Shown here in pieces: positions 2,080 through 63,116 of a stretch of 64,000 nt of DNA. The stretch's first letter is position 1. Every line of letters begins with the position of its first letter. The notes under the pieces are model-generated. The model saw only the letters and a list, made by a program, of their open reading frames with translations, was not told where the DNA came from and did no database searches. Position numbers and translations under genes: made by a program. This DNA is from Zygnema cylindricum (lineage: Eukaryota > Streptophyta > Zygnematophyceae > Zygnematales > Zygnemataceae): assembly GCA_037447655.1 (NCBI GenBank), contig JBBHKE010003023.1:37290-101289 (forward strand), given 5' to 3'.

Positions 2080-2189
2080 CCGATCACGCAAATAGATTTG
2101 TAATTCACGTTCCACTCATCTTTCCGATCTCATTTCTCACGTCACGAGTCGAGTCATCTACGTGTCCGAGGCGTGAGAGGAAAGGTAAA

Positions 2190-3857
2190 CATTTTGTCGC
2201 AGACAGGTAAAGTCAGGCGAAGTGCGCGCCTTAGGGGAGCAAATGCAGCCTTTGCTTATTCATCACACACAGAAGAGCCTCTAACGTTAACGGAAAAAAA
2301 TTGGTGTGATGAAAAAGAACCTTGGGTGGAAGCAGTAAATCAAGAAATGAAGTCCATCATGGAGGCCCAAACGTGGGATGTGGTGGAACTTCCCCCGGGG
2401 AGAAAGGCTATTGCGAGTAAATGGGTGTTTAAGTTAAAATTGAACCCTGATAATACCATTGACAGGTATAAGGCTCGTTTGGTTGTTAAGGGATATAATC
2501 AAAAGGAGGGGATAGTTTATGAAGAAACTATCTCACCATTTGTAAGGTTTCCATCAGTGCGCAACTTACTTAAATTAACTGCAATAGACAATTTTGACAT
2601 TCACCAAATGGATGTCAAAACTGCCTTTTTGCATGGTGATTTAGATGAGGTAATTTATTTGAAGTAGCCAGAGGGTCATGATGAAGCAGAAAATTTAATC
2701 TTGTGTGCAGGCTTTTAAAATCTTTGTATGGGTTGAAGCAAGCCCCGCGATAGTGGAACAGAAAATTAGATGAGTTCTTGACAGGATAAGGATTTACTAG
2801 AATAAGCTCTGATCATTCAGTACATGTGATGGGTGGTGATAATCCTAATGAGGTGATATTCATTGTTGTGTATGTTAATGATCTGCTACTAATCAGTAGG
2901 AACAAAGAAGGAATTGCTATATTAAAACAAGCTCTTAATTCACAATTTGAAATGAAATATTTGGGTGAGACAAAATATATCCTTGGAATACAAGTTGAAA
3001 GAGATAGAGAAAATAAAATACTTAGGCTAACTCAGAAAGAAGCAATAGGAAACATGTTGGAAAAATTTGCCTTCGCTAATGCCAAAGGTTGTGCAACTCC
3101 TATGGAGTATAAGCAAAAACTTGAAGGAATAGAGCATGAGTTTGGAGTCATAATAGATGAGGAACTCATTGCAAAAGAGCAAAAATTTATGTCTCAAGTA
3201 CCTTACAGACAAATAGTATGAAGTCTGATTTACTTCATGAATTGTACTATACCCGATATAACTGTAGTTGTTGGTGTATTGAGCTGAAGTTTGGAAATTC
3301 CACCAAAGAGAGACTGGGAGGCAGCAAAAATGGTCTTAAGGTATCTTGTTGGGACTATAATTTTTTCGCTTACTTTGATAGGGGAGAAGAGTAGCATTAA
3401 TACTTGGAGTGATGCCAGCTATGGTGATGTGCCTAGTAGGAAGTTTACAATTGGGTATGTCATTTAGATTGGAAGTGGAACTTGTAGTTGGAGTAGCAAA
3501 CTTCAAAAGGTCACGGCTCAATCTACTATGGAAGCCGAATACATGGCTGCAAGCGCAGCCTTGAAAGAGCTGCTATGGATTGAGGCATTTCTTCAAGAAT
3601 TGGGTTTTGCGCAACACGGGACACAAATAATGTGGTGCGACAATCAGGCAACCATTTCTGTGGCTACAAACCCAAGTCACCATTTTAAATGTAAGCATAT
3701 GGACATTCGGCCACATCTGGTACGACAGAAGGTATTTGCAAAAGTGGTCAAACTTTGTTATTTGCCTGATGAGAAAATGGTTGCGAACATGTTAACAAAA
3801 GCTCTTCCAACTCCTAAGTTAGAGTACTGCAGAAAAACATGTGGTCTAAGTGAATAA
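2190..3857 (+). pseudogene. Decayed Ty1/Copia pol: reverse transcriptase and RNase H
   Basis: Reading through stops gives the Copia RT core (KWVFKLKLNPDNT, RYKARLV, QMDVKTAFLHG, SLYGLKQAPR, YVND in place of YVDD) and then the RNase H part (WSDASYGD, MEAEYMA, WCDNQAT, KHMDIR). Several stops interrupt it. Two fall where glutamine is expected (before PEG, and in PR-stop-WN, both TAG), and others fall where Gly, Arg or Leu is expected, so this is general decay rather than a recoded stop. Integrase and gag are missing. It runs opposite to the solo LTR beside it and belongs to a different, more diverged Copia lineage than the element at 16.8-21.1 kb. Confidence 0.9.
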
Positions 3858-16794: not shown

Positions 16795-19700
16795 CTAGTC
16801 AATCTTTAATTTCAGACCACACTTCTCCCTGCAAAAAATTAGCTTAGGGGAAGGCACAGGTTTGGTCATCATATCTGCTACCATCTCACTATCTGGTCTG
16901 TACTCTAAACTGATTATTTTGTTTTCTACTTTCTCTCTAACAAAGCTGAGTCTGATGTCCATGTGTTTGGCTTTAAAATGGTGTTTAGGATTGGCAGAAA
17001 TAGCGATTGCTGCCTGATTATCACAAAATATTTTCTGCACACCACTCTTAAGGTGACCAAGCTCACCAAGCAAAGACTTGACCCACATCAATTCTTTTAC
17101 AGCAGAGCAAGAGGCCATATACTCAGCCTCCATGGTGGACTGAGCAATAACCTTTTGCTGTTTGCTACTCCAACAGCAAGCCCCATCACCCACATATAAT
17201 ACATATCCAGAAGTACATCTCCTCATCGGAGCATCACCATAACTGGCATCACTCCAAGTAGTGATGTCAGTATTCTCCCCACCCAAATGCAACCATAGAT
17301 CTCTAGTTCCTACCAAGTATCTAAGGACTCTCTTAGCTGCCTCCCAATCCTTCTTAGTGGGAGCATTTAGACTTCTACTCAGCACTCCTACAGCTGCAGC
17401 TAAATCCGGCCGGGTACAATTCATAAAATAGATTAGACTTCCCACTACTTGCCTGTAAGGAATAGTCTGCATGAACTTCTGTTCTTCAGGAGATAATTCC
17501 TCGTCTAAGAATATGACTCCTTCTTCCTCACTCCCCTCACTTCCCTTCTTCAATTCCATTGGAGTTGTGCAACTATTAGCTTTATCCATTTGAAATTTTT
17601 CAAGCATGTTTCCTATTGCTTCCTTTTGAGTCAATCTTATAATTTTTCTTTTTCGGTCTCTCTCTACTTGAATTCCCAAAATATATTTTGCTTCCCCCAT
17701 ATCCTTCATTTCAAATCTCCCCTTAAGATCGGTTTTCAGTTTATTAATTTTTTCCATTGATTTACTTAAAACAAGCAAATCATCAACATAAATTGCAATA
17801 AATATAAAACCTTCCTCATCTTCGAAAACATAGATTGAGTGATCTGAGCTGATCCGAATATATCGTAGACCGGTAAGAAACTCATCAAGCTTCTTATTCC
17901 ACTGTCGGGGCGCCTGTTTCAAACCATAAAGAGATTTAATCAGCCGGCATACCTTACTCTCCTCTCCTTCTTCCACAAACCCTTCGGGTTGTCGCATGAA
18001 GATCTCCACTTCTAATTCTCCATGCAAAAAGGCTGTTTTGATGTCCATCTGGTGCACTTCCATGTCTTCCGCCGCTGCTAAACTGAGAAGTATGCGGACG
18101 GAGGGAAATCTGACCACCGGGGCAAAGGTTTCCTCGTAGTCAATTCCTTCCTTTTGTGTAAATCCCTTTGCCACTAATCTGGCCTTGTAGCGCTCGATTG
18201 TGTTATCTGGGTTCAGTTTCAGTTTGAAAACCCACTTACAACCGATTGGTTTTCGGTTAGGTGGACAGTCCACCAGCTCCCAAGTATCGGCTGCCATGAT
18301 TGAAGCCATCTCCTCATTGATGGCTGTCTTCCACCGGTTTCTTTCTGGACAAGTCATCGCCTCTCGATAAGTTTGAGGTTCATCTTGATGAGATAGTTTA
18401 GTTACCTTGTTATTAACCTGTTTTTCTTGCAGTCTTTTGCTACTTCTCCTCCCTCCCTCAAAATCTGAGGCCGGAATAGATGGTTCTCGTGGATTCTTTC
18501 GAACAAACTCGGCTTCTCCCCTATCCCTTGATTCCGAATCAATTTCCACCACGTCTTCCGCTTCGAGTAGAGTTGTCACTGGAGTTTCCATAGCCGAGTC
18601 CTTTTCGGTCTGATTTGTTCCTGCAAGAATGTCATCGTCTCTAAAACCTGGATAGTTAGGAAGCTCAAAGTCATCAGAATTTTCTGACTCAAATCTGATT
18701 TTTACTGACTTTGTATATTTGAAGGGATCCACAGACTTTCCTTCATCCATAACTACTAGATGCTTTACTAAGATTATATCTTCTCTTTTTAGATCATAAA
18801 CTCTATATCCTTTAACATCCTCATCATATCCTAATAAGTATCCCGGTTTTCCTTTAGGATCTAGCTTCCAATTGGACCGATCAGTATCTAGACTGAATAC
18901 TTGACTGCCGAAAACCTTTAAATGAGATAAGTCTGGTTTCCGGCCTGTCCATCTCTCATAAGGTGTTTGATCTTTTATAGCTGAAGTAAGAACTCTATTT
19001 TTGAGGTAATTAGCACAGTTCATTGCTTCTGCCCAAAACCTTTTTCCTATCTTCTTATCCGACAACATACTTCTAGCACTATCACTTAGTGTTCTATTTA
19101 ACCTTTCAGCTACCCCATTCTGTTCAGGATTTTCTGGCACTGTCTTTTGGTGTTGAACCCCATCTTCCCTCAAAAAATCCTCAAACTGGTTAGAAGTATA
19201 CTCTCCACCATTGTCACTCCTTACTCTCTTGATTGGAGTTTCTTGGAGTTTTTCGCTCCATGCTTTATATTGTCTAAAACAGTCCTCAGCTTCTGACTTG
19301 TTTTTCAAAAAATATACTCGGGAATACCGAGACCAATCATCAGTTATAGTCATCATAAATCTCTTCCCCCCCGGTGAGGGCACTCTAGCCGGTCCCCAAA
19401 TATCTGTGTGTACTAGATCTAGAAGTTTTTCTCCCTTGTAGGTGGCTGTTTTTGGAAAGGGTAATCTGTGTGCTTTACCTTGAGCACACCCACTACAATC
19501 ACTTATATCATCACTCTCACTGAACTGAATCCCTTCCACCACTCCCATCTTTTTCATCTCTCTTAACTTATCTAGATTCACATGCCCAAGCCTCTTATGC
19601 CACATCATAATATCATGAACACCAGCATAATAAAGTTTCTTCGTTTCATTACTTAAGATCAGCCTAAACATCCCATGGCTACCTTTCTCAGCAATGAAAT

Positions 19701-21153
19701 AGACATCCTCCTCAAAACTAGCAGTAAAGACTCCTTCCCTAGTGCTAGTGAAAAAACCCTTATCATCTAATAGAGATGTAGAGATAAGGTTTTTGTTCAG
19801 CTCCGGAATAAACAATACATCGGAGAATGTTAATATGGATGTCTTTCCTTCTACTAACTCTTTGAGATCTACCGATCCTACAAGAGTAGTGGTGACTATC
19901 CTCCCATCCCCGTACTCTATCTATACGGTGGGAATCTTTCTTATCTTAGTGAACAGGTGCCTATCCTTACACATGTGCATGGAGGCACCTGAATCTACAA
20001 TCCAGCCTGCTTCACCTTTCAATCCACCGTAAGCACATTTCTGCCTTCGTGGAATTTCGACCTCATTTTTCGCCTCCAACTCCTCATCCAAAAGGAGCTC
20101 ATCGTCCTCGTCCTCGGATTCCGCCTCAAGTACCTGTGTGACAAGGGCCTTTTTCTTTCCTCTCGGGGTACCACCGGTCTGCCCCTCCTTTAACCGAAGC
20201 TCGGTTAGCTTGGTGCACTCTGCCATATAGTGCCCAGGTTTCTTACAAAAATGACATAAACCTTTGGGAGCCCTTGGTTCGAACTCGCCAACCTGTTTTT
20301 TCTGCTCCCTACCCCCATAGTTTACGACCGGTTTTCGGGAATCCTTGTTCCTCCAATCGGTCGCTGTTGCCAAGGCTTGGCCACTCTTTCCTCCCCTTCG
20401 GATCTCAATCGTATTCTCTCGAACGAGAATCATCCCTACCACTGAGCTCCATATCCACCTTGAGTCCGGCAAGTCCTGCACACGGTTGACTATGTTCTCG
20501 AACTCATCAGGTAACTTCATTAGTAAACAGTTAACTTTTTCTTTTTCACTAAAAACTTTACCCGCACTCTCTAGCTCCATGAAGAGTGTAGCAAGCTCAT
20601 TGCAAAAATCCAACATATTTCCCCCTTTGTATACATACTCCTTAACTTTCTGATCAGCCAACTGTTGTTGCTGAATCGTACCACTTCGGTACATCTCTAT
20701 GAGAGCCATCCAAAGATCGGATGCCCTCTCTACCTGCAAATGAGGACATGCAAGTCCTTGAGTGAGATGGCGTAGGATGAAGTGCTTTGCCGCCATATTG
20801 TTGAAGTCCCAGGTTTCAGTATCATTCTCCTCGTTCCTCGGAATAGGTGACATGAATGCTAAACCAGTTGCTATTGGTGTGGTCGCCTCCTTCTCCTTTC
20901 CTTTGTCCACCACCTCTCCTTCCTTTGTTTCCTCCGTTGAAGGTTAATCCTCTTTCCTGGTGAATCTGCTTCCTTTAAACCCTGGAGGAATTCCAAGACT
21001 TGATGGACGCCCCAATCGTCCACTCACTATCCCCCAAAACCTTTTTTCGCATAGAGCTCCTATCATCATACTTTCCCAGTATATGAAGCCAGTTCCATTA
21101 AATATTGGTACCCTAGAGGGTGGGCCCATAACCTGAAACTCTGAGACCTCCAT
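16795..21153 (-). pseudogene. Copia gag-pol polyprotein with two in-frame stops
   Basis: One frame runs from ATG at 21153 (or the second Met, next to the LTR) to TAG at 16795. It is broken only by TAA at 20946-20944 and TAG at 19923-19921; the related copy at 25.7-26.9 kb has sense codons at those places. Domains in order: gag; zinc knuckle CHFCKKPGHYMAEC; protease DSGAS; gag-pre-integrase with WHKRLGH; integrase with the HHCC ending CSGC and the D,D,E residues in HTDIWGP, RSDNGGEY and NGVAERLNR; RT with YVDD; RNase H with DASYGD, MEAEYMA and CDNQAAI. The 1006-codon pol part (19815-16795) is fully open. It acts in virus-like particles to reverse transcribe and integrate the element. Translation of pol now would need readthrough or a downstream start. 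Confidence 0.95.
21119..21133 (-). other. Primer-binding site matching the anticodon arm of initiator tRNA-Met
   Basis: The plus strand reads GGTGGGCCCATAACC directly against the LTR. This equals the anticodon stem-loop of plant initiator tRNA-Met as I recall it (GGGCCC-CAU-AACC region), not the tRNA 3' end. Drosophila copia is primed in the same way by a cleaved 5' half of initiator tRNA-Met. The same 15 bases sit at the same place at 26978-26992 and 45708-45722. Confidence 0.75.
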
Positions 21154-25403: not shown

Positions 25404-25475
25404 GGCCGGGTAGCTCAGTTGGTAGAGCTAGTGTATGTCTAACACAATGTCCCAGGTTCGATCACCGGCCCTGCC
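25404..25475 (+). tRNA. Degenerate tRNA-like sequence (anticodon position GTC)
   Basis: The 72-base layout is canonical: acceptor GGCCGGG/CCCTGCC with one mismatch, a perfect D arm GCTCAGTTGGTAGAGC, an anticodon loop ATGTCTA with U33, and T loop TTCGATC. The T stem has two mismatches and the anticodon stem one, and position 37 is T. It is probably a tRNA pseudogene or SINE head. Confidence 0.4.
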
Positions 25476-25514
25476 ATTTAACCAAAGTTTTCACTTTGGC
25501 GCCCATGCGATATG

Positions 25515-25733: not shown

Positions 25734-26989
25734 CTATCCTACAAGAGTAGTGGTGACTATACTCCCATCCCCGTACTCTATCTCTCCGGTGGGAATCTTT
25801 CTTATCATAGTGAACAGGTGCCTATCCTTACACATGTACATGGAGGCACCTGAATCTACAATCCAGCATGCTTCACCTTTCAATCCACCGTAAGCACATT
25901 TCTGCCTGCGTGGAATTTCGACCTCGTTTTTCGCCTCCAACTCCTCATCTAAAAGGAGCTCATCGTCTTCGTCCTCGGATTCCGCCTCATGTACCTGTGT
26001 CACAAGGGCCTTTTTCTCTCCTCTAGGGTACCACCAGTCTGCCCCTTCTTTAACCGAAGCTCGGTTAGCTTAATGCACTCTGCCATATAGTGCCCAAGTT
26101 TCTTACAAAAATGACATAAACCATTGGGAGCCCTTGGTCCGAACTCGTCGGTCTGATTTTTCTGCTCCCTACCCCATAGTTTCCGACCAGTTTCCGGGAA
26201 TCTTTGTTCCTCCAATCCGTCGAAGTTACCAAGGCTTGGCCACTCTTTCCTCCATTTCGGATCTCAATCGTATTCTCCCGAACGAGAATCATCCCTACCA
26301 CTGAGTTCCATATCCACCTTGAGTCCGGCAAGTCCTGCACACGGTTCACTATGTTCTCGAATTCATCGGGTAACTTCATCAGTAAACAGTTAACCTTTTC
26401 TTTTTCACTAAAATCTTTTCCCACACTCTCTAGCTCCATGAAGAGTGTAGCAAACTCATTGCAAAAATCCAACATCTTCCCCCCTTTGTATACATACTCC
26501 TTAACTTTCTGATCAGCCAAATGTTGTTGCTCAATCGTACCACTTCGGTACATCTCTATGAGAGCCAACCAAAGATCGGACGCCCTTTCTACTGGCAAAT
26601 GAGGACATGCAAGTCCTTCAGTGAGATGGCGTAGGATGAAGTGCTTTGCCGCCATATTGTTGAAGTCCCACGTTTCAGTATCATTCTCTTTTTTCCTCAG
26701 AATAGGTGACACGAATGCCGAACCTGTTGCTATTGATGTGGTCGCCACCTTCTCCTTTCTTTTGTCCACCACCTCTCTTTCTTTTGTTTCCTCTGTTGAA
26801 GGTGGATCCTCTTTCCTGGTGAATCATCTTCCTCCAAACCTTGGAAGAATTCCAAGACTTGATGGACGCCCCAACCGTCCACTCACTATCCCCTAAAACC
26901 TTTTTTCGCATAGAGCTCCTATCATCATATTTTCCCAGTATATGAAGCCAGTTCCATTAAATATTGGTACCCTAGAGGGTGGGCCCATA
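25734..26989 (-). pseudogene. Copia gag-protease, frameshifted
   Basis: Three overlapping frames (26772-26065, 26215-26000 and 26003-25734) together match the gag of the element at 16.8-21.1 kb. They include the zinc knuckle region (CHFCKKLGHYMAEC) and the protease core (IVDSGASMYMCKDRHLF). At least two frameshifts break it, near 26170 and 26010. It has sense codons at the two positions that are stops in the fuller copy. Confidence 0.85.
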
Positions 26990-43909: not shown

Positions 43910-45235
43910 TTAATAAAACTTTAAGTAAATACTCTCATGTTTTAAAAGGTCTACTAGATGAGCTGAAATAAACATTCCATCTTGTTGATCACACATTTTA
44001 TTTAGCATCCCACTTTTCATAAATCCGAGCAAAGATTTTATCCACCTCATCTTCTTTCCATCCACACAAAAACCGATTTCCCTCTTGCAGTTCAAACAGC
44101 CAGCCCCATCTCCAATCTGCAACACACACCTAGATGCTATCCTTTTAACATGCACACCTTCATAAATGACATCACTCCCATTAGTGATGTCAAAGCCATT
44201 ACCCCCCAAACTTATTGTTAAATCAAGAGTCCCCACTAAGTTCCTCATAAAATCTACATCTTCCGTGCTCATATTTTTTTCCATGATACTCACCCTATTT
44301 TTTGAACTTTCCTCACTCTCTCCCATGGAATTTTTTCCACTATCACTTTCTGACTTTATTCTCGATAAATATTTCTCCTCCCACAAATCTTTCATTAAAT
44401 ATTTCTCTTCTCCCCTATCCTTTAAAACCCCTTGAAATTTCACTTCTCCCCTTTCCTCGGAATCCGTTGATGTCTCCCTATCCGACAAGTTTTTTGTTTC
44501 CAACATATCTATGAAATTATCCTTATTATTTCTAACTCCCTCAAGTACCTCCCTTCCCTTTACTTCCCTTGTACCTCCAAAAGCACACTGTTGCTTTCGT
44601 AGAATTTCTGTGTACTTTTCTCTCTTCTCCATTCTACCGATGTGAAGAAGTTCCAAAATTTCTTCATCCTTTTTCTCCTCTTCCCTTTGTTCCTCCTCAT
44701 CGACATACAAACTTCTAAGTTCTTCCAAACAATGACACTCCTCCATATAGTGACCTGGTTTCCTACAAGCGAAGCAAACCGCTTTTTTTAAAGCTCCCCT
44801 TTCTTTTCCTCTCCATCTCTTTCCACCAAAGTTCCGATAAGGATTACATTTGTCTTTCTTCCTCTCATCATGCTTCCGCAAGTCACCGTCATTCTTCTCA
44901 TCACGCTTCCGCCTGTCACCAACAACTGTAAATGCATTCACCCTGTTACTTCCCCTACAAAGCTCCAAAGTGCTTTCCCTCACAAGAATTATCCCCATGG
45001 TAATGCTCCAAGTCCATGAGGAGCCATCAATTTCCTGCATACGGTTAATGATGTTTTCGTACTCCTCTGGGAGTTTCATGATTAGTGTGTTAATCTTTCT
45101 CTCCTCATATTCTAAATATCCCGCACTACCAAGCTCAACATATAACGCAGCAATATCATTGCAAAACTCTATCATGCTACCACCTTTATAAACATAGGCC
45201 CCTATTTCCTGTTTTACAAACTGCTACCTCTATAT
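43910..45235 (-). pseudogene. Copia gag fused in frame to an RNase H remnant
   Basis: From Met at 45175 an open frame of 421 codons runs to 43910. It begins in gag (FCNDIAALYVELGSAG, LIMKLPEEYENIINRMQ), has a zinc knuckle CFACRKPGHYMEEC, then an acidic, lysine-rich stretch. It then passes without a stop into sequence alignable with the RNase H end of the full element (NLVGTLDLTISLGGNGFDIT, CVLQIGDGAGC, MRWIKSLLG, CDQQDG). Protease, integrase and RT are deleted. Upstream of 45175 the same frame continues as gag (AYVYKGGSM) after two TAG codons near 45220-45235, where the fuller copy has Gln. RNase H catalytic residues are lost, so enzyme activity is unlikely. Confidence 0.75.
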
Positions 45236-54261: not shown

Positions 54262-57200
54262 ATGGCTTCAGCAAAGAGAAGGAGGAACTTACTGTCTTCA
54301 ATTTATTTCTTATTTTTCTTTCTTCTTTCCGGAAATGCCATGGCTTCCTCTATACGAGGGAGATTCGACGAATCAGGAACCAGGAGACAGCTGGCAGATT
54401 TTAACACTAGCACCTTGAACTGGTGGGGGTATGATCCCATGAATGGGGGAGTCACAATCTATTTAATCTATTTTGGAAATTGGTCAACTTCTAGTCAAAA
54501 CATAATTCAAAGCTTCGTCGAGTCGTTAGGCTCGCAATCAAACACCGCTTTATACCCAAACCTTGGTGATTGGTGGAATATTATGACGGATTATTATGGG
54601 TCAGAATATGATATTAATGATGTTGTTTCTTTTGGAAAAGCTTTTGAGGTTGAGACAGTGGATTATTCGAACACAACATCTAGTTTGTCTTTTTTGGATA
54701 CGACATATACCGTCCAGATTCTCCTTTCGTCTTTAGTGTCTTCCTCGAAAGGAATATTACCGTACAGTTCCAATGCGATCTATGCAATTCTTGTTAGCGA
54801 TAACGTAACGGTGAGAATTTTCACATGGGAAAAGACTATAAATAGTGGTTAAAGCGAACATTGTTGCAATGTTACACCGTGAATCGTTATTAGTGTTAAT
54901 GTTTTTTTCATCTCTTTAAACATATTTTCTCCGTACACACATGTCGGTTTTTAGATCGGACGGTTGCGATTGAAAGGTAAGATTTTCAGCTTCCGATTGG
55001 CGGTCTCAAATTGAAAATCGGACAAGAGTGTACGGAGAAAAGATGTTTTAAGTGGCGAAGAAAATATTAACACTAATAGTGATACAGGGTGTAGTAACGT
55101 TAGGTAGTGAGGGTGACGATGATGATGATGATGATGAGAGAATTGTGGAATGTCTTGTGGTTTTTTGTGGGTTTTTTCATAACTGAGATTTTGATTTTCG
55201 TTTTCTATGATGACAATGATAATGGTAATGATAATGAGGACAGTTTTTGGTTGGAATTGTCTTGTGGATCTTTATAGATTTTGCTAAAAATGGTATTTTG
55301 AGCTTCGTTTTCTATGATGACAATGATAATGGTAATGATAATGAGGACAGTTTTTGGTTGGAATTGTCTTGTGGATCTTTATAGATTTTGCTAAAAATGG
55401 TATTTTGAGCTTCGTTTTCTATGCTTGAAGGATTGTTGAAAAAAGAATAAAAAATGTTACAATGTACCCAAAATTGATTGGAACTTATAATTGGCGTGGA
55501 GAGGATTAAGATAAGTCCTTATACTGGGAACTTTTTATGGCTTATGGTTAGGGTTGCATTTAGAATTCTAAGGCTAAATTAAATTCGGAGTGAGTTTCGG
55601 ATTTGCTTTAGAGTCGCGGTCATATATATCTATTTTTTTAGTTTTGTGATGACCTCCTATCTTTTCAGTCACCGATTCTATTGTTCTCTCCTTCTCCTCT
55701 TTTGCTTTTGGCTTATTCCCTCATATATATCAGTTTATGTCCTTCTTTGAGTTAACGGAAACATCAATTAAGGTGGATTTTGCACCTGATCCGGAAATGT
55801 CACGCCCCAATTTGTGAATGTAACCCAAAAGCAAAATTTTCTACCGGAAAAACCAAAAACATTGCGTTTCTCTCTCTCTTGCCTTCTCTTATTTTTCATA
55901 TTCGAAATAACTCCTGTCTCCTCCTTTCAGGTGGAAGATGCCTGCTCGTATTGCAGCCAAAATTACAATTACACGCATGATTTTACTGGAACTAACCTTA
56001 AGTACATTATGGTCTACGATGGATCGGTAAAATGTCCATATGAATGTCCGTACACATTTAACGAGACACATAAACCGCCGAACGGAGATGCAAGTGCGGA
56101 TCACGTCATTTTTCAATTGAGTAAACAAATTCTTAATACGGTCACAAATCCATTCGGGAGAGGTTGGCATGACATTAACAACGTCAGTATTGGTTATTTT
56201 TGTGAATCGGATAACAGTTTCATTACTGTGGATGCAAGTTCAAGTGAGTAAAACATTGCTCATTGCAAAATTGGTGACACTGAATGATAACATCGTTATT
56301 TGGAACATTGATAACATTGTTACATGAAAAATTGATAAAATTGTTATCCGGAAAATTGATGTTAAAGATTAGGAATTGAAAAACTCTAACAAACTTTGAG
56401 CATTGGACATTTGGATAGAATTTAGAATTCAATAAGCTTAACAAACATTGAACATTGGACATTGGGGCATTTGTAAGTTTACAATCGTAGCAAACATTAA
56501 ACTATGGACCTTGGACACAAGATACTCAAAATTATCTCACACTAAATAAATAGAAGAGCTTAGACATGTATATGAAACAATAGAAATTAACATTTTGCAG
56601 GTTTACGAAGCATTGAAGAGTAGGCATTGGAACATTTTTAGCTTAGAGGATTAACAGATATTACACATTGGTCACTGCAGATGTAATATTATAGTATTAT
56701 TATGTATACTATTATATTATTAGTATTATTATTAGAACACGATCCAACAAGGTTGAAAAGTGCCAGTGATTGAATATTGAACATTTCGCATTAAAAATGA
56801 TAAACAATTTTTGAAGAGTAAACATCAGGATGACAAATTGGATGTTAAATATTTGGAGTTGTACGAAGTTAGAAAATGTTCAGCAGGGAATATTTGAAAT
56901 TCAACAGTGCCTGTTGAACATCCAATATTAAACAAATGGGAATTAGAAATTCGGCATCGAATTTTTTAAGCCAATTATAACGAGGCAAAACAGTATTGAA
57001 CAGGAACATTGATGATTTGATATTGGGTTGCACGTTAGAATTAAAACGAGTATATTTAGAACAGGTATTGAAAAAATGAAAACGCAAACATGTCAAGTTT
57101 TGCATTGCATGGTTCATATTTTGGTTTCTCGAATTGAAGGATTCTTTCCAAATTTTTTGTCCCTCTCATCTCTCACCTCCCCCTTTTCGTTTCCTCCCCC

Positions 57201-58681
57201 TCTCCCTTTCCCTCTCCCTCTCCCTCTCCCACTCCCTCTCCCTCTCCCCATTTTCCTCCCACTGCCTTTCCTCCTCCCCTTCCCCCTTCCCCCTCCCCCC
57301 CTCCCACTTCCCCTCCCCCCTCCCCTCTCCCCCTCTCCCTCCATCTCCCCCCTCCCCCTTCCTTCCTCTTCCCCTCCCTCTTCCATTTCCTACTTTCAGG
57401 TGTTTCCAATATCTATGGAAATGAGAATTCAAGATATTTGGTAGTCCCTGCTTGGAGCAGAACAAACAATACGTGTTCTCTCTCTCTCGACCCCCCTCCT
57501 CCTCCTCCTCCTCCTTCTCCTCCCCTACCTCCTTCTCCTCCCCTACCTCCTCCTCCTCGTTCCCCACCAATTGAAGGTATGACGAGTGTAGAGTAAATAT
57601 GTATATTTGAAAAAAAAAAAACACGAAGTTTCTAGATAATGTTAGGAATCTGAATATTTTCTTTATTATTTTGTTATTGTTATTTTCTTTTTGGTTCTCC
57701 GATTGCAAGTAACGTCACATTAATTAGTATGAATTACAGAAAAAAGGGAAGGGGAGAAAAAATATGTGGAACAAAGTCCTTTTATTTTGGAGTACAATGT
57801 ATTAGTTTAATTAATTCCAGAGTAATTAGGTGTACAATGTAGGTTTAAAATCTGAGGACATTTTCCATTTCTATAATTTTCTAGAGTTTGACCATCGGAA
57901 ACATGAAACATAAAACAAAAGAGATGACTCAAACAATTGAAAAGTGAAGAAATAAGATTCCATTTCTGACATTGAGGTTCAGGATTTTTTGTTCAATAAA
58001 AAATAAACAGAATCAAATGGAAATTTGGGCTCGATTATTGGAGGGGCCATCGGAGGAGCCGCCGGTATAATTGTACTTTTTGTCCTTATTCTCTGTATTT
58101 TCCGAAAGCACCGCAAACATAAATCGAGAAACACCAGTCTTAAATACTTGCCAGGTGAGCAAAAGTCATCCTCTCTGTCTCCCACTTTCTCCCTCTTTCT
58201 TTCGCTCACCCCTCCTTCCTCCCTCCCTCCCTCCCTTCCTCCCTCCCTCCGCCCCTCCTCCCTCCCTCTCCCTCTAAAATCGCAGAGAACAATCATAGTC
58301 GAAAAAAAAAAAACCAATGAAATTCCGAAAAACCCAGAAAAAACTAGAAAAAATTGTAGATTTCCTCCAATTTCCCCTTTTTCCTGTCCTTTAGAGATTA
58401 CATGTAATGTCCCGAATTTTTCTCTAAGCAACTTTCAAATTTCTCAATTTGATTTCAGATCTCCGTGCGCTTCAAATAATTCCGTACTCGAAAATTAAAA
58501 AAGCGACCGATAATTTTAGCAAAGAAAATGAGCTCGGGAGTGGCGGTTTTGGGAGTGTGTACAAAGGGGTTTTACCGGATGGAACTCTTTGGGCGGTGAA
58601 AAGAGCACATAAAAAAAGTGAAACGATGGCGGAATTTTGGAGAGAAGTAAGGCGTTTTACACTTTCCCTGACTCCCTCTCC

Positions 58682-58718
<37 letters not shown>

Positions 58719-61700
58719 CCCCCCTCTCTCTCTCTCCCCCTCTCCCTCTGCCAGTCTCTTGCACACCCCATCATTCTCTTTCTGCTTGTCCCTATCTCCT
58801 CTCCCTCTCCCTCTCCCTCTCGCCGAAATAAACTTTCCTGCATAATCGACTTCGGCCTGAATCGCTTAACATTAATCATCATAACAAAACCGAATATTTT
58901 TTAAATCAAAAAATAAATGAATGAGCTAGATAGCACAAAAACTTGGAATTTTGATATTGTCGCGTCACGCTTGCAGGTAGAACTTTTGTCTCAAATGAGG
59001 CATAGGAATTTGGTGGAGCTTTTGGGGTTTTGTACGGAAAAAGACGAACAGATTTTGGTATACGAATTTGTGGCCAATGGGACGTTGCGGCAACATCTCA
59101 ACGCCGGGAATGGTGCGCAAATTTTATGTTTTATTTTTTTTTGTATATTTCAAGAATTTTTCTGTTAGGAATCAAATTTTCAAGCAATCGATTTGTTAAA
59201 AGTTAAGTTCAAAATTTATAAAAAGCAAGTTTGAAAGCTTTTATGCTAGGATTTATTCTTTATTTTCAAGGATATTACTATAAGGAATCAAATTCTTATT
59301 TTCATTTTGGGCATTTTAATGGTATGTTAACTTTTATAGTTTTATGGTAAGCTGGGGAATTTTAAAGTTAGTAATAAATATTTTATGTTGATTTCAAGAA
59401 TTTAAATGGAGAATTCCTAAGTCAAATGTTAGCAATCAAATTTGTACGTTAAGTTTGGGAATTTTAACGTTAATAGTCGTTTTTTGCGTGAATTTCAGGA
59501 ACTTTAATCTTAGAAATCAAATTTGAATGTTAATGTTTCAAGAAAGTTGAATGTTAGGAATCAGATTTTCACGTCAAATGTCAGCAAGTTTAACATTACC
59601 TTCATTTCAAGATGTTAAATGTTCAAAATCAAAATTGTGTTATTTTCAAGAGTGTGGATGCTATGAATAAAAAGATTTTACGTGAAAATTAGCAAAATAA
59701 AATAAAATTTAATGGTAGGAATCAGGTATTAACGTCAATGGTTAGCACTCAAACTTTACGTTAATTTCCGGAGTTTGATTGTAGGAATCAGACTTAATTT
59801 CAGGAATTTTGATCCCAAAAGTCTCTTCTATAGCGTTTTGAATTCAGAGAGTTTTAAGTGGTCTTTCTCCTAGGGATGTTAAGCCTAGGATTTTTTATTA
59901 CAGGGAATCATACTAAATATGGTGAGAGAGAACATTTGAGAGGAATATCGGGTTTCTTATTACGTAGGTCTCTAGCAAAATTAATGTGGATAAATAATGT
60001 ACTGATAGCTTTGTATTTAAGGGCAGGTTATGAATCCACATTATTTTACGTGTGTTCTTATATGTGAAATATGCTAAATTTTGCCAAAATAAAAAATGAC
60101 TTCCTTTTTCAGCGCCTATAAAGCCCAAAAAAAATTCAAAACTATGATTCTGTCGAATGTCCACAAAATTTTTACATAGACCAAGATTAACTAAACCGAA
60201 ATACACGTCAAAATTTTATTGAAAAACACTGAAATTATTTTTATGTTTGCTTTTTTTATTTCCATTTATGTCGCATTTCTGTCAGAATTTCTTCGAAACA
60301 ATTATTTGGACTTCCCGCAAACACATTGTCTTAAAGCATATGAATCAATTTCCCAAAAACAAAGACGATTGCGCCACAATTTTGCCTAAACAATTTCCGA
60401 AAAAGAAGCAAAAGCGTGTCGATTTTTGGCCAAAAGACTGCCGAAACTTTGCAAAAATTTGCTGAAACTTTTCCAAAAACTTTCTAGTAACTTCTCAAAA
60501 AAATATGTCAAAATATGTCGAAACATTCTCGAAAAATTTGCCGAATATTTTGCCAAATGATTTGCCAAAACTTTGTCGAAAATGTGGAAAAACTGTGATT
60601 TAACGGAGTGGTGTTTCCATGTGTTGCCAGGTGGTGGCAAGCCTCCTCTCACCTTCCTCCAGAGAGTAGAAATTGCGACCGGTACGGCTCGAGCCCTCCA
60701 CTACCTCCACAATTTCGCTAAGGAAACTGTCGTCCATCGAGATATTAAACCGGAAAATATTCTCCTCACTCCCACTATGGAGGTAAAAATTCCTCTCTCA
60801 CTTTTCGCAATCCTCTCTCTTTCCTCAGTCCACTCTCTTTTTCAATCCGGAAAACGTTCTCCTCGCTCCCACTATGGAGGTAAAAATCTTCTCACTTTTC
60901 TCAATCCTCTCTCTTTTCTCAATCTTCGCCCTTTTCTCAATCCCCTTTCTTTTCTTAACCCTTTCTCTTTCTCAATCCGGAACACATTCTCCTCTCTCAC
61001 ACAATGGCGGTATAAATCCCTCTCTCAATTTTTTCAATCCTCGTTCCTCTCTTTCTCAATCGGAAAACTTTCTCCTCGTTTCCACTATGATGGTAAATAT
61101 TTCTTGCTCTCACTTTTCTCGGTCCTCTCTCTTTCGTTTCTCAATTTTCTCTCTTTTTCCTCACTCCCACTGTGATGGTAAAAGTTCCTCGCTCTCACTT
61201 TTCTTAGTCCTCTTTCTCTTTTTTCTATCCTCTCTCGTTCCTCAAGCCTCTTTCTTTTCTTTCTCCTCTATCTTTTCCCAATCCTCTTTTTTTCAAGGGG
61301 AATCGGAATAAGTGTATGTTTTTTGAGCCTCGGTTGAATAGTGGGAAAAATCAAGCGAGGTAAACCTTTCTTAGGGAAACCAGAATTGTTGTGTATCTAT
61401 GACGGAAAACATGGAATTAAACATCCTCCCATTTCTTCTGAAAGGACACCAGCATTAATGGTGTGTGGGTTTTTGAGTTATCTGTTTTAATAGAGGGAAA
61501 AAGCTACGGGGAGGTAAAAGTCTTTTCTTCACAGGAAAACCAAATTTAGTGTGGATTTTTTTACAAGGAAATTGTACATAATGTTTTGGATTTTTGACAT
61601 TCGGTTAACTCAAATAAGTATGGATGTTACGTTTTTTCTTCACATCAACTGTAAAAGAAAATATTTAGACAATATCTCTCTCCCCTCCCCCTCCCCCTCC

Positions 61701-63116
61701 CCCTCCCCCTCCCTCTCCTCCTCCCCCTTCCCCTCTTTTTTGGACACCTGGCAAAATTTTCAGGCAAAATTGGCGGATTTTGGACTTATCCGGAGGCTCC
61801 CCACAGAGGACGAGTTAACGGGAACTAATACGGGAAGAGTGGGAACCTTGGGGTAAGAAAATTATAAATCTATTTTTTTAATTCTATGTACTTTTTTCTT
61901 ATTTATCCGATTTGTACTTCGTCTTGCCACTTTTTTTTTTCTTTTGTTTTGCATTTTTTAATTATGCCAAAAAAAAAATGTGGGAGTGAAAAAAATATAT
62001 ATATCAATTATTTTTTCATGGTACGTTTTTTATTATTTCATTCATTTGATTATTTACTTTTTTTTTGTCGTTTTGCAGGTATATGGACCCCAGAATTAGT
62101 CCGGCAGTGCCCGTAAATGCAAACATGGACGTTTATAGGTGAGCCCATTTATTTCTCCTTTCCCCCTTTTTTTTTGTTTTATTTTTAATACAAACAATAT
62201 GAAAAAGTATAACAAGGGATTAAATGGGCTTCATGGGATTTTTTTGTTTTTGTTTTCCAGTTTTGGAGTGGTAGTGTGGGAATTAATAACGGGAAGGAGA
62301 CCGGTTTTTAAGGACGTTCAAAAGGAACTGGAAATGACAGGCGAGATAGTACATGTGAAGAGATGGGTAAGAATCTCTCTCTCTTCTCTCCCACTCTCCC
62401 TCTCCTTCACTCTCCACTTCCCTCTCCCACTTTCCATTTCCCCCTTTCTCCGTCTGTTCCTCTTCCACCCTCTCCCTCTCTCCCTCTACCTCTCACTCTC
62501 CCCCTCTCCTTGATCTCCCATCTTTCTGCCTGAATTTATCCTGATGATCTTGATAAAGCATGAAGTAAATAAAATAATAACGATTCGAAAGCAAAAACAA
62601 TGAGATCAACCTCCTCGTCTTCCTTTCTCGAAGTCATTCCATTAAATAACAAAAAGAAAAAATACATGTATATATACATAAATAAAAAAAATAACAAAGT
62701 CAAAACGAAGACCGTGTTAATAGCAGAAAGTATTAGAACCAGACATAACCAAAAATTTACATTCTATGGTTATTGCTTTTCCTACTTTTCAGGCCCAACC
62801 CCTTGCAAAATTGGGACAATATGAAGAAATAACCGATCCAAGGATGGATAAAGACTATTCTCTGGAGAATTTAAAAGATTTTATTGAAGTCGCCCAACTT
62901 TGTTCTCGAGATGACCCACAATTGAGGCCTCAAATGGATTATGTGGTACGAAGACTCGAAACAATCTTATTTTCTTTAGGAGGAAATGCTGTAAACATCG
63001 ATATTGAAGAAAATGGAAAGGGAAAAATAGAACGCTTTGATTTTCAAGTTTGTTCGACGGATTCGAATGCCGAAAGTTTTGTTCCTCCGATTTCCCAAGC
63101 GCCTCATTGGAGATAA
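54262..63116 (+). CDS. Receptor-like kinase with an EXORDIUM/PHI-1 ectodomain (11 exons, 745 aa)
   Basis: Exons: 54262-54810, 55931-56243, 57400-57576, 58011-58154, 58459-58646, 58977-59112, 60631-60782, 61764-61852, 62079-62138, 62261-62366, 62793-63116. All introns are GT-AG and the frame holds throughout. Residues 1-29 are a signal peptide. About 50-320 are an EXO/PHI-1 domain: [37 protein letters not shown] shows exon joining, [40 protein letters not shown]. About 322-345 are Pro-rich, and 355-378 span the membrane. Kinase 414-720: [10 protein letters not shown]442 (AVK), E457, HRD D540 with N545, DFG D558. The APE Glu is Arg (MDPR588). EXO proteins are secreted and linked to brassinosteroid and carbon-dependent growth, so the kinase may sense a wall or apoplast cue. 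That role is inferred. Confidence 0.88.
54875..55091. mobile_element. MITE in intron 1 of the EXO receptor kinase
   Basis: It runs from CACCGTGAATCGTTATTAGT to GTGATACAGGGTG with TA on both sides (54873-54874, 55092-55093). The inverted repeats extend about 50 bases at each end. The size class is the same as 5848-6066, with shared ATGTTTTAAGTGGCGAA near the right end. Confidence 0.8.
55200..55413. repeat. Tandem duplication in intron 1, 107-bp period
   Basis: GTTTTCTATGATGACAATGA starts each copy (55200 and 55307), and the copies are almost identical. It is intronic. Confidence 0.85.
57160..57395 (+). repeat. CT-rich tract in intron 2 next to the acceptor
   Basis: CCCTCTCCCT-type repeats run about 230 bases and end at the TTTCAG acceptor before exon 3. 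A related CCTCCT tract continues inside exon 3 and encodes the Pro-rich linker. Confidence 0.85.
58165..58280 (+). repeat. CT-rich tract in intron 4
   Basis: CTCCCTCCCT repeats follow the exon 4 donor. Any open frame here is low complexity. Confidence 0.8.
58660..58830 (+). repeat. CT-rich tract in intron 5
   Basis: (CT)n and CCCTCT repeats start about 15 bases after the exon 5 donor. Confidence 0.8.
60750..61200 (+). repeat. Tandem duplication of the exon 7 3' end and donor within intron 7
   Basis: The exon 7 end (CCACTATGGAG, then GTAAAA at 60783) is repeated downstream with GT at about 60880, 61010, 61093 and 61178. Copy one keeps CCACTATGGAGGTAAAAAT exactly. Later copies diverge (CACAATGGCGGTATAAAT, CCACTATGATGGTAAATAT, CCACTGTGATGGTAAAAG). 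Spacing is 83-130 bases. The repeats supply several potential decoy 5' splice sites. Confidence 0.8.
61675..61740 (+). repeat. CCCCTC tract before the exon 8 acceptor
   Basis: A (CCCCTC)n run lies 25-90 bases upstream of the TTTTCAG acceptor at 61763. Confidence 0.8.
62375..62515 (+). repeat. CT-rich tract in intron 10
   Basis: TCTCCCTCTCC repeats start directly after the exon 10 donor. Confidence 0.8.

Follow-up and report, generated by a model that had tools for sequence, protein, structure and literature searches.

The window analyzed here, a 64,000-nucleotide stretch of Zygnema cylindricum contig JBBHKE010003023.1, contains on its forward strand a gene (positions 54262-63116) that probably encodes a type I plasma-membrane receptor-like kinase (RLK), in which an EXORDIUM/PHI-1 (EXO) ectodomain is predicted to be joined through an extensin-like Pro-rich stalk and one transmembrane (TM) helix to an RLK/Pelle kinase. 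The known members of the EXORDIUM and EXORDIUM-LIKE (EXL) families are secreted and kinase-free and, to our knowledge, the mode of action of EXORDIUM proteins is open. A natural fusion of an EXO domain to a receptor kinase suggests that this domain binds something that is sensed, and the ectodomain offers an experimental handle. If the genome is that of Zygnema, the gene would also point to a signaling route, in the sisters of land plants, that land-plant models may not reveal.

The gene model comprises 11 exons separated by 10 GT-AG introns of 122-1518 bases and forms a single frame of 745 residues, with an ATG at 54262 and a stop codon that ends at 63116. A preliminary description of this DNA had joined these exons without a frame break, and the join proves to be the only open solution among the local splice choices: when donors and acceptors were shifted within 4 bases at every site, exactly one combination, that of the 745-residue protein, was open in a single frame. 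Our own spliced-alignment script recovered identical exons, though it was guided by that protein. These results confirm the gene model predicted from the DNA, the exons of which, all on the forward strand, are as follows.

54262-54810 (+), exon 1: signal peptide and first half of the EXO/PHI-1 domain, residues 1-183 (unique open GT-AG solution, hydropathy, Phi_1 match)
55931-56243 (+), exon 2: second part of the EXO domain, residues 184-287 (nucleotide identity of 95.8% with the C2000 paralogue)
57400-57576 (+), exon 3: C terminus of the EXO domain and Pro-rich linker, up to residue 346 (splice solution, Phi_1 match)
58011-58154 (+), exon 4: single TM helix (about residues 355-377) and juxtamembrane stretch (hydropathy), containing no Met
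58459-58646 (+), exon 5: Gly-rich loop and catalytic Lys442 (splice solution, Pfam)
58977-59112 (+), exon 6: kinase N-lobe (splice solution, Pfam)
60631-60782 (+), exon 7: catalytic loop with HRD at 538-540 (splice solution, Pfam)
61764-61852 (+), exon 8: DFG at 558-560 and start of the activation loop (splice solution, Pfam)
62079-62138 (+), exon 9: P+1 loop with GYMDPR, Arg standing in place of the APE-motif Glu
62261-62366 (+), exon 10: kinase C-lobe (splice solution, Pfam)
62793-63116 (+), exon 11: end of the kinase, C-terminal tail (partly common to C381) and stop codon

The preliminary description had expected PF04674 and a kinase domain in the spliced protein, and a Pfam scan found both over their cut-offs in one frame. 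Phi_1 (PF04674) matched residues 60-314 (model positions 9-274 of 276, E 5.2e-31, 108.5 bits against a cut-off of 25) and Pkinase matched residues 415-689 (E 1.8e-46). ABC1 also matched the kinase region, at 23.1 bits against a cut-off of 22.9, while PRIMA1 over the linker and TM helix stayed below its cut-off (19.8 against 38.6 bits). Pfam gave no malectin match in the protein at E up to 0.01, an NCBIfam scan gave 10 kinase families, every one far below its cut-off, and Rfam gave no match at gathering score. Hydropathy revealed an N-terminal hydrophobic segment at residues 10-28 and one TM segment at about 355-377; the signal peptide and TM helix were assigned from this profile and by eye. 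Eight potential N-glycosylation sites precede the TM helix, and the kinase harbors Lys442, HRD (538-540) and DFG (558-560). The sequence of parts first proposed (signal peptide, EXO domain, Pro-rich linker, one TM helix and a kinase with Lys, HRD and DFG) is therefore upheld by Pfam and hydropathy, and the predicted product has the RLK/Pelle layout, with signal peptide, ectodomain, one TM helix and cytoplasmic kinase in one protein.

A search of the assembly (352.8 Mb in 2689 contigs) with the PF04674 profile gave 22 matches, corresponding by our reading to some 15 loci spread over 14 contigs. One of them, C381, contains the same parts in the same order as the window gene in an open frame with a provisional N-terminus, and its Phi_1 (8.7e-30) and Pkinase (6.9e-47) matches are both over the Pfam cut-offs. 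Eight of the 10 window introns are matched in C381 by an intron of the same phase no more than 2 alignment columns away; intron 4 agrees in phase but is displaced by 7 columns, where the alignment is poor, and intron 8 is absent from C381. Identities between the window protein and C381 amount to 71/240 in the EXO domain, 143/273 in the kinase and 21/53 in the tail. The C381 exon 3-4 junction allowed 14 open combinations, from which we took the one whose acceptor, CAG, precedes the TM stretch. About 4.2 kb past the last exons of the C381 receptor gene, its final kinase exons appear again at unchanged query identities, owing either to recent duplication or to a repeat in the assembly.

The closest copy, at C2000, has exons 1-8 at the window boundaries, with the far end of exon 3 altered. 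Its exons are 91-96% identical to those of the window gene (exon 3, 85.8% over 162 columns) and its introns 66-97%, as calculated from partial pieces. This copy is broken: stop codons interrupt exons 1 and 5, the exon 3 donor is lost and the linker frame is shifted. It also runs off the end of its own contig after exon 8. On the same contig as the window gene, beyond the window and about 1.7 kb past that gene, the last exon recurs in inverted orientation, tail to tail with the gene and still open (C2269 102059-102382, reverse strand, locus L026; 89.5% identity to exon 11); since the C2000 copy ends after exon 8, this exon and that copy may be parts of one gene across a gap. In a second C2000 fragment, only EXO exons were found. 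If the organism is Zygnema cf. cylindricum, for which a heterozygosity of 2.22% is reported, the C2000 copy would hardly be an allele, because its exons differ by 4-9%.

Comparison of the window gene with the C2000 copy shows purifying selection on the gene at the sequence level. The two differ at 35/558, 26/558 and 53/557 sites of codon positions 1, 2 and 3, respectively. After removal of gapped codons and 2 stop codons, and with exon 3 used only as far as the linker, the synonymous and non-synonymous rates (dS and dN) are 0.142 and 0.052, giving a dN/dS of 0.36 over 554 codons (Fisher p 1.4e-6 on rounded counts); because one partner is a pseudogene, this ratio is if anything raised. The preliminary description had argued that random assembly would not yield such joins, and the C2000 paralogue agrees, aligning exon by exon at the same boundaries with differences concentrated at third codon and synonymous sites.

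Several points weigh against the receptor reading. The architecture has been read from DNA alone, and the exons of C381, with its provisional N-terminus, were located with the window protein as the guide. The closest copy, that at C2000, is a pseudogene, which suggests that the family is turning over. In the window kinase, moreover, the APE-motif Glu is replaced by Arg (GYMDPR), where C381 has GYMDPE, a change that the preliminary description did not mention. Finally, because the EXO domain has no solved relative by sequence, ligand binding by this domain is unsupported.

The altered APE motif would fit an EXO protein that is anchored in the membrane and has a kinase of little or no activity, serving mainly as a tether or scaffold that links wall and membrane, as would EXO relatives that appear to have Pro-rich and TM parts. 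C2120 contains EXO, Pro-rich and TM parts, the TM stretch being missing from the longer alignment and seen as an open segment; C46 contains EXO and Pro-rich parts, and its TM exon is model-dependent, being present in the shorter of two alignments and absent from the longer, which wanders through many tiny exons. A tblastn search (up to E 10) of the 18-24 kb downstream of C2120 and C46 gave no kinase. However, Lys442, HRD and DFG are intact in the window kinase, its exons 5-8 are conserved relative to C2000 and C381 retains GYMDPE, and we consider a mere tether unlikely. Somewhat less likely again is a decaying copy, that is, a window gene still open but heading for loss like its C2000 relative. 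The stops, lost donor and shifted linker frame of that relative and the loss of the APE Glu in the window gene would suit such a fate, but all 745 codons are open and the dN/dS is 0.36, though some of this constraint may date from before the C2000 decay.

An improbable alternative is that two adjoining genes, one for a secreted EXO protein with a Pro-rich tail and the other for a separate RLK, were wrongly joined. Reading exon 3 on into intron 3 adds the six residues GMTSVE and then a stop, so that a soluble form produced by intron 3 retention is possible. Against this reading, no Met occurs between residues 210 and 451 (from 211 to 450), that is, past catalytic Lys442, and thus a separate kinase gene would begin after this Lys unless it had an unseen exon, while an in-frame TAA at 58004 lies just seven bases upstream of exon 4. 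In addition, C381 keeps the order of the parts together with the position and phase of the linker intron, with intron 4 in the same phase at its 7-column offset. An assembly chimera, for which one could cite the end of contig C2269 at 102729, about 2.3 kb beyond the gene, and the inverted last-exon copy near that end, is scarcely credible given that the architecture recurs at C381 and, broken, at C2000.

Thus, the preliminary interpretation of the gene as an EXO-type receptor kinase stands as regards the protein, with the Pfam matches, the C381 locus and the case against two genes all indicating that one gene encodes EXO ectodomain, TM helix and kinase; the sensing of a wall or apoplast signal, which it also proposed, we only infer. 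In such a receptor, the EXO domain would reside in the wall space and bind a wall component, a sugar or a partner protein. Binding would alter receptor clustering and the kinase would then phosphorylate cytoplasmic partners, coupling wall or osmotic state to growth. The EXO relatives with an apparent TM helix but no kinase (C2120, less surely C46) could act as co-receptors or decoys. By analogy with other EXL genes, the window gene may encode a receptor for wall or osmotic state. In Mesotaenium, which has 12 EXL homologues, one co-expression module has both EXL genes and wall-integrity receptor kinases among its hubs according to passages of PMC10505561, and a passage of PMC12820192 reports that osmotic stress raises the level of an EXL protein; both concern EXL genes or proteins other than that of the window. 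A three-streptophyte network links EXL genes to BSK, SERK and MKK gene chains.

When 17 EXO-locus stretches of 5-10 kb each were searched at E 1e-3, kinase-part matches were found only at C2000 and C381, with the C2408 stretch running into Ns, so that a kinase may be hidden there. In C2408 (L001) and C1221 (L007), the EXO domain is followed by long SPPPP extensin-like stretches; their EXO rows contain an HEIAE stretch, which the four receptor-type rows lack. An unrooted EXO tree placed the window gene, C381, C2120 and C46 on one side of a branch with support of 98/96. This tree holds 10 rows from the roughly 15 EXO loci, those of C46, C1221 and C2408 being partial; it does not include C1125, C610, C933 or either C2000 copy.

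The kinase seems to have relatives behind other ectodomains. Among the best 60 of 159 PDB matches, the window kinase found FERONIA first (E 1.6e-60), then SymRK, BAK1, CERK1 and other plant kinases, then IRAK1/IRAK4; the nearest PDB match of the C381 kinase is SymRK. Of 685 candidate kinase matches in the genome, 127 were scored, and outside the EXO loci these included a C565 piece with 53% identity (query 16-112) and C2138 pieces with 62% (68-114) and 44% (121-202). At C2138 (L028), two open segments upstream of the kinase match malectin or malectin-like models over cut-offs, and at C565 one of two upstream open segments matches LRR_1 just over its cut-off, both ectodomain assignments coming from separate open segments rather than full gene models. 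Identity to the window kinase is 50.5% over 303 columns for C381, 50.4% over 226 for C2138 and 47.7% over 153 for C565. Because the C2138 and C381 kinases are themselves 54.7% identical over 214 columns, the kinases alone do not separate the EXO receptors. The kinase seems to come from a group that is paired with several ectodomains, of which the EXO part is the unusual one. Most likely, the fusion arose once, when an EXO domain was placed before a kinase of the kind also found behind malectin-like ectodomains in this genome.

The window protein shares the Phi_1 domain, here near full length, with EXORDIUM/PHI-1 proteins, but adds a TM helix and kinase and so is not of the soluble, secreted single-domain type. 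Its kinase resembles those of CrRLK1L (FERONIA) and malectin-like RLKs, FERONIA being the best PDB match and C2138 about 50% identical, whereas its ectodomain is Phi_1 and not malectin. PERK ectodomains are Pro-rich and are not known to have a folded sensor domain; the window protein shares their Pro-rich extracellular stalk, one TM helix and RLK kinase and also has Phi_1 at residues 60-314. Lectin_legB receptor kinases of Zygnematophyceae and land plants, such as Zci_10218 in a passage of PMC11096116, likewise pair an ectodomain and a kinase through recombination, but with a different ectodomain.

Passages of PMC11096116 also count 209 Pfam domain combinations unique to Zygnematophyceae; the EXO-kinase pair may sit in the supplement of that paper, and the fusion would then be known as a table row. 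Among the matches listed in a literature search, no EXO/PHI-1 kinase fusion was found described in titles and the starts of abstracts, a scope that leaves aside RLK catalogues and supplements. The pair is not named in the passages available of PMC11096116, PMC9915684, PMC12820192, PMC11840003, PMC10505561, PMC10868138 and PMC10916322, and the word exordium is absent from the main texts of PMC11096116, PMC9915684, PMC10868138 and PMC10916322. Given the GRAS genes of this genome and its likeness to that of Zygnema cf. cylindricum, a Zygnematophyceae-restricted origin of the EXO receptor kinase is plausible. That the gene represents a new receptor-kinase subfamily limited to some or all Zygnematophyceae, with a wall growth protein turned into its sensor, we put forward tentatively, as a possibility with the odds against it.

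By eye, one pair of EXO alignment columns reads His-Glu in 3/6 non-receptor rows and His-Ser in the other 3/6, and all four receptor-type rows have neither His nor Glu. The His-Glu pair prompted us to ask whether the EXO domain might be a degenerate zinc peptidase, a reading that is unsupported, with no PDB relative. Indeed, PDB searches gave no relative for a single EXO sequence at E up to 1, and a 10-row profile had a fatty-acid-binding protein as its best match, at E 1.1. Pfam assigned Phi_1 to 10/10 EXO rows and otherwise gave three families in one row each (best E 0.039). A literature search on EXO as a zinc peptidase gave nothing relevant among the matches listed (best 10 of 637).

A search for GRAS genes in this genome gave 27 matches, a presence that indicates Zygnematophyceae or land plants. 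Elsewhere in the window, several open reading frames read by eye as pieces of Copia-type retrotransposons (integrase, reverse transcriptase, gag-like), at 2173-2667 (+), 16795-20913 (-), 26065-26772 (-) and 43910-45175 (-). In the Zygnema cf. cylindricum SAG 698-1a_XF genome, repeats are reported as 73.3% and Copia as 29.8%. One further feature was predicted by ARAGORN.

25404-25476 (+): tRNA-Asp (gtc)

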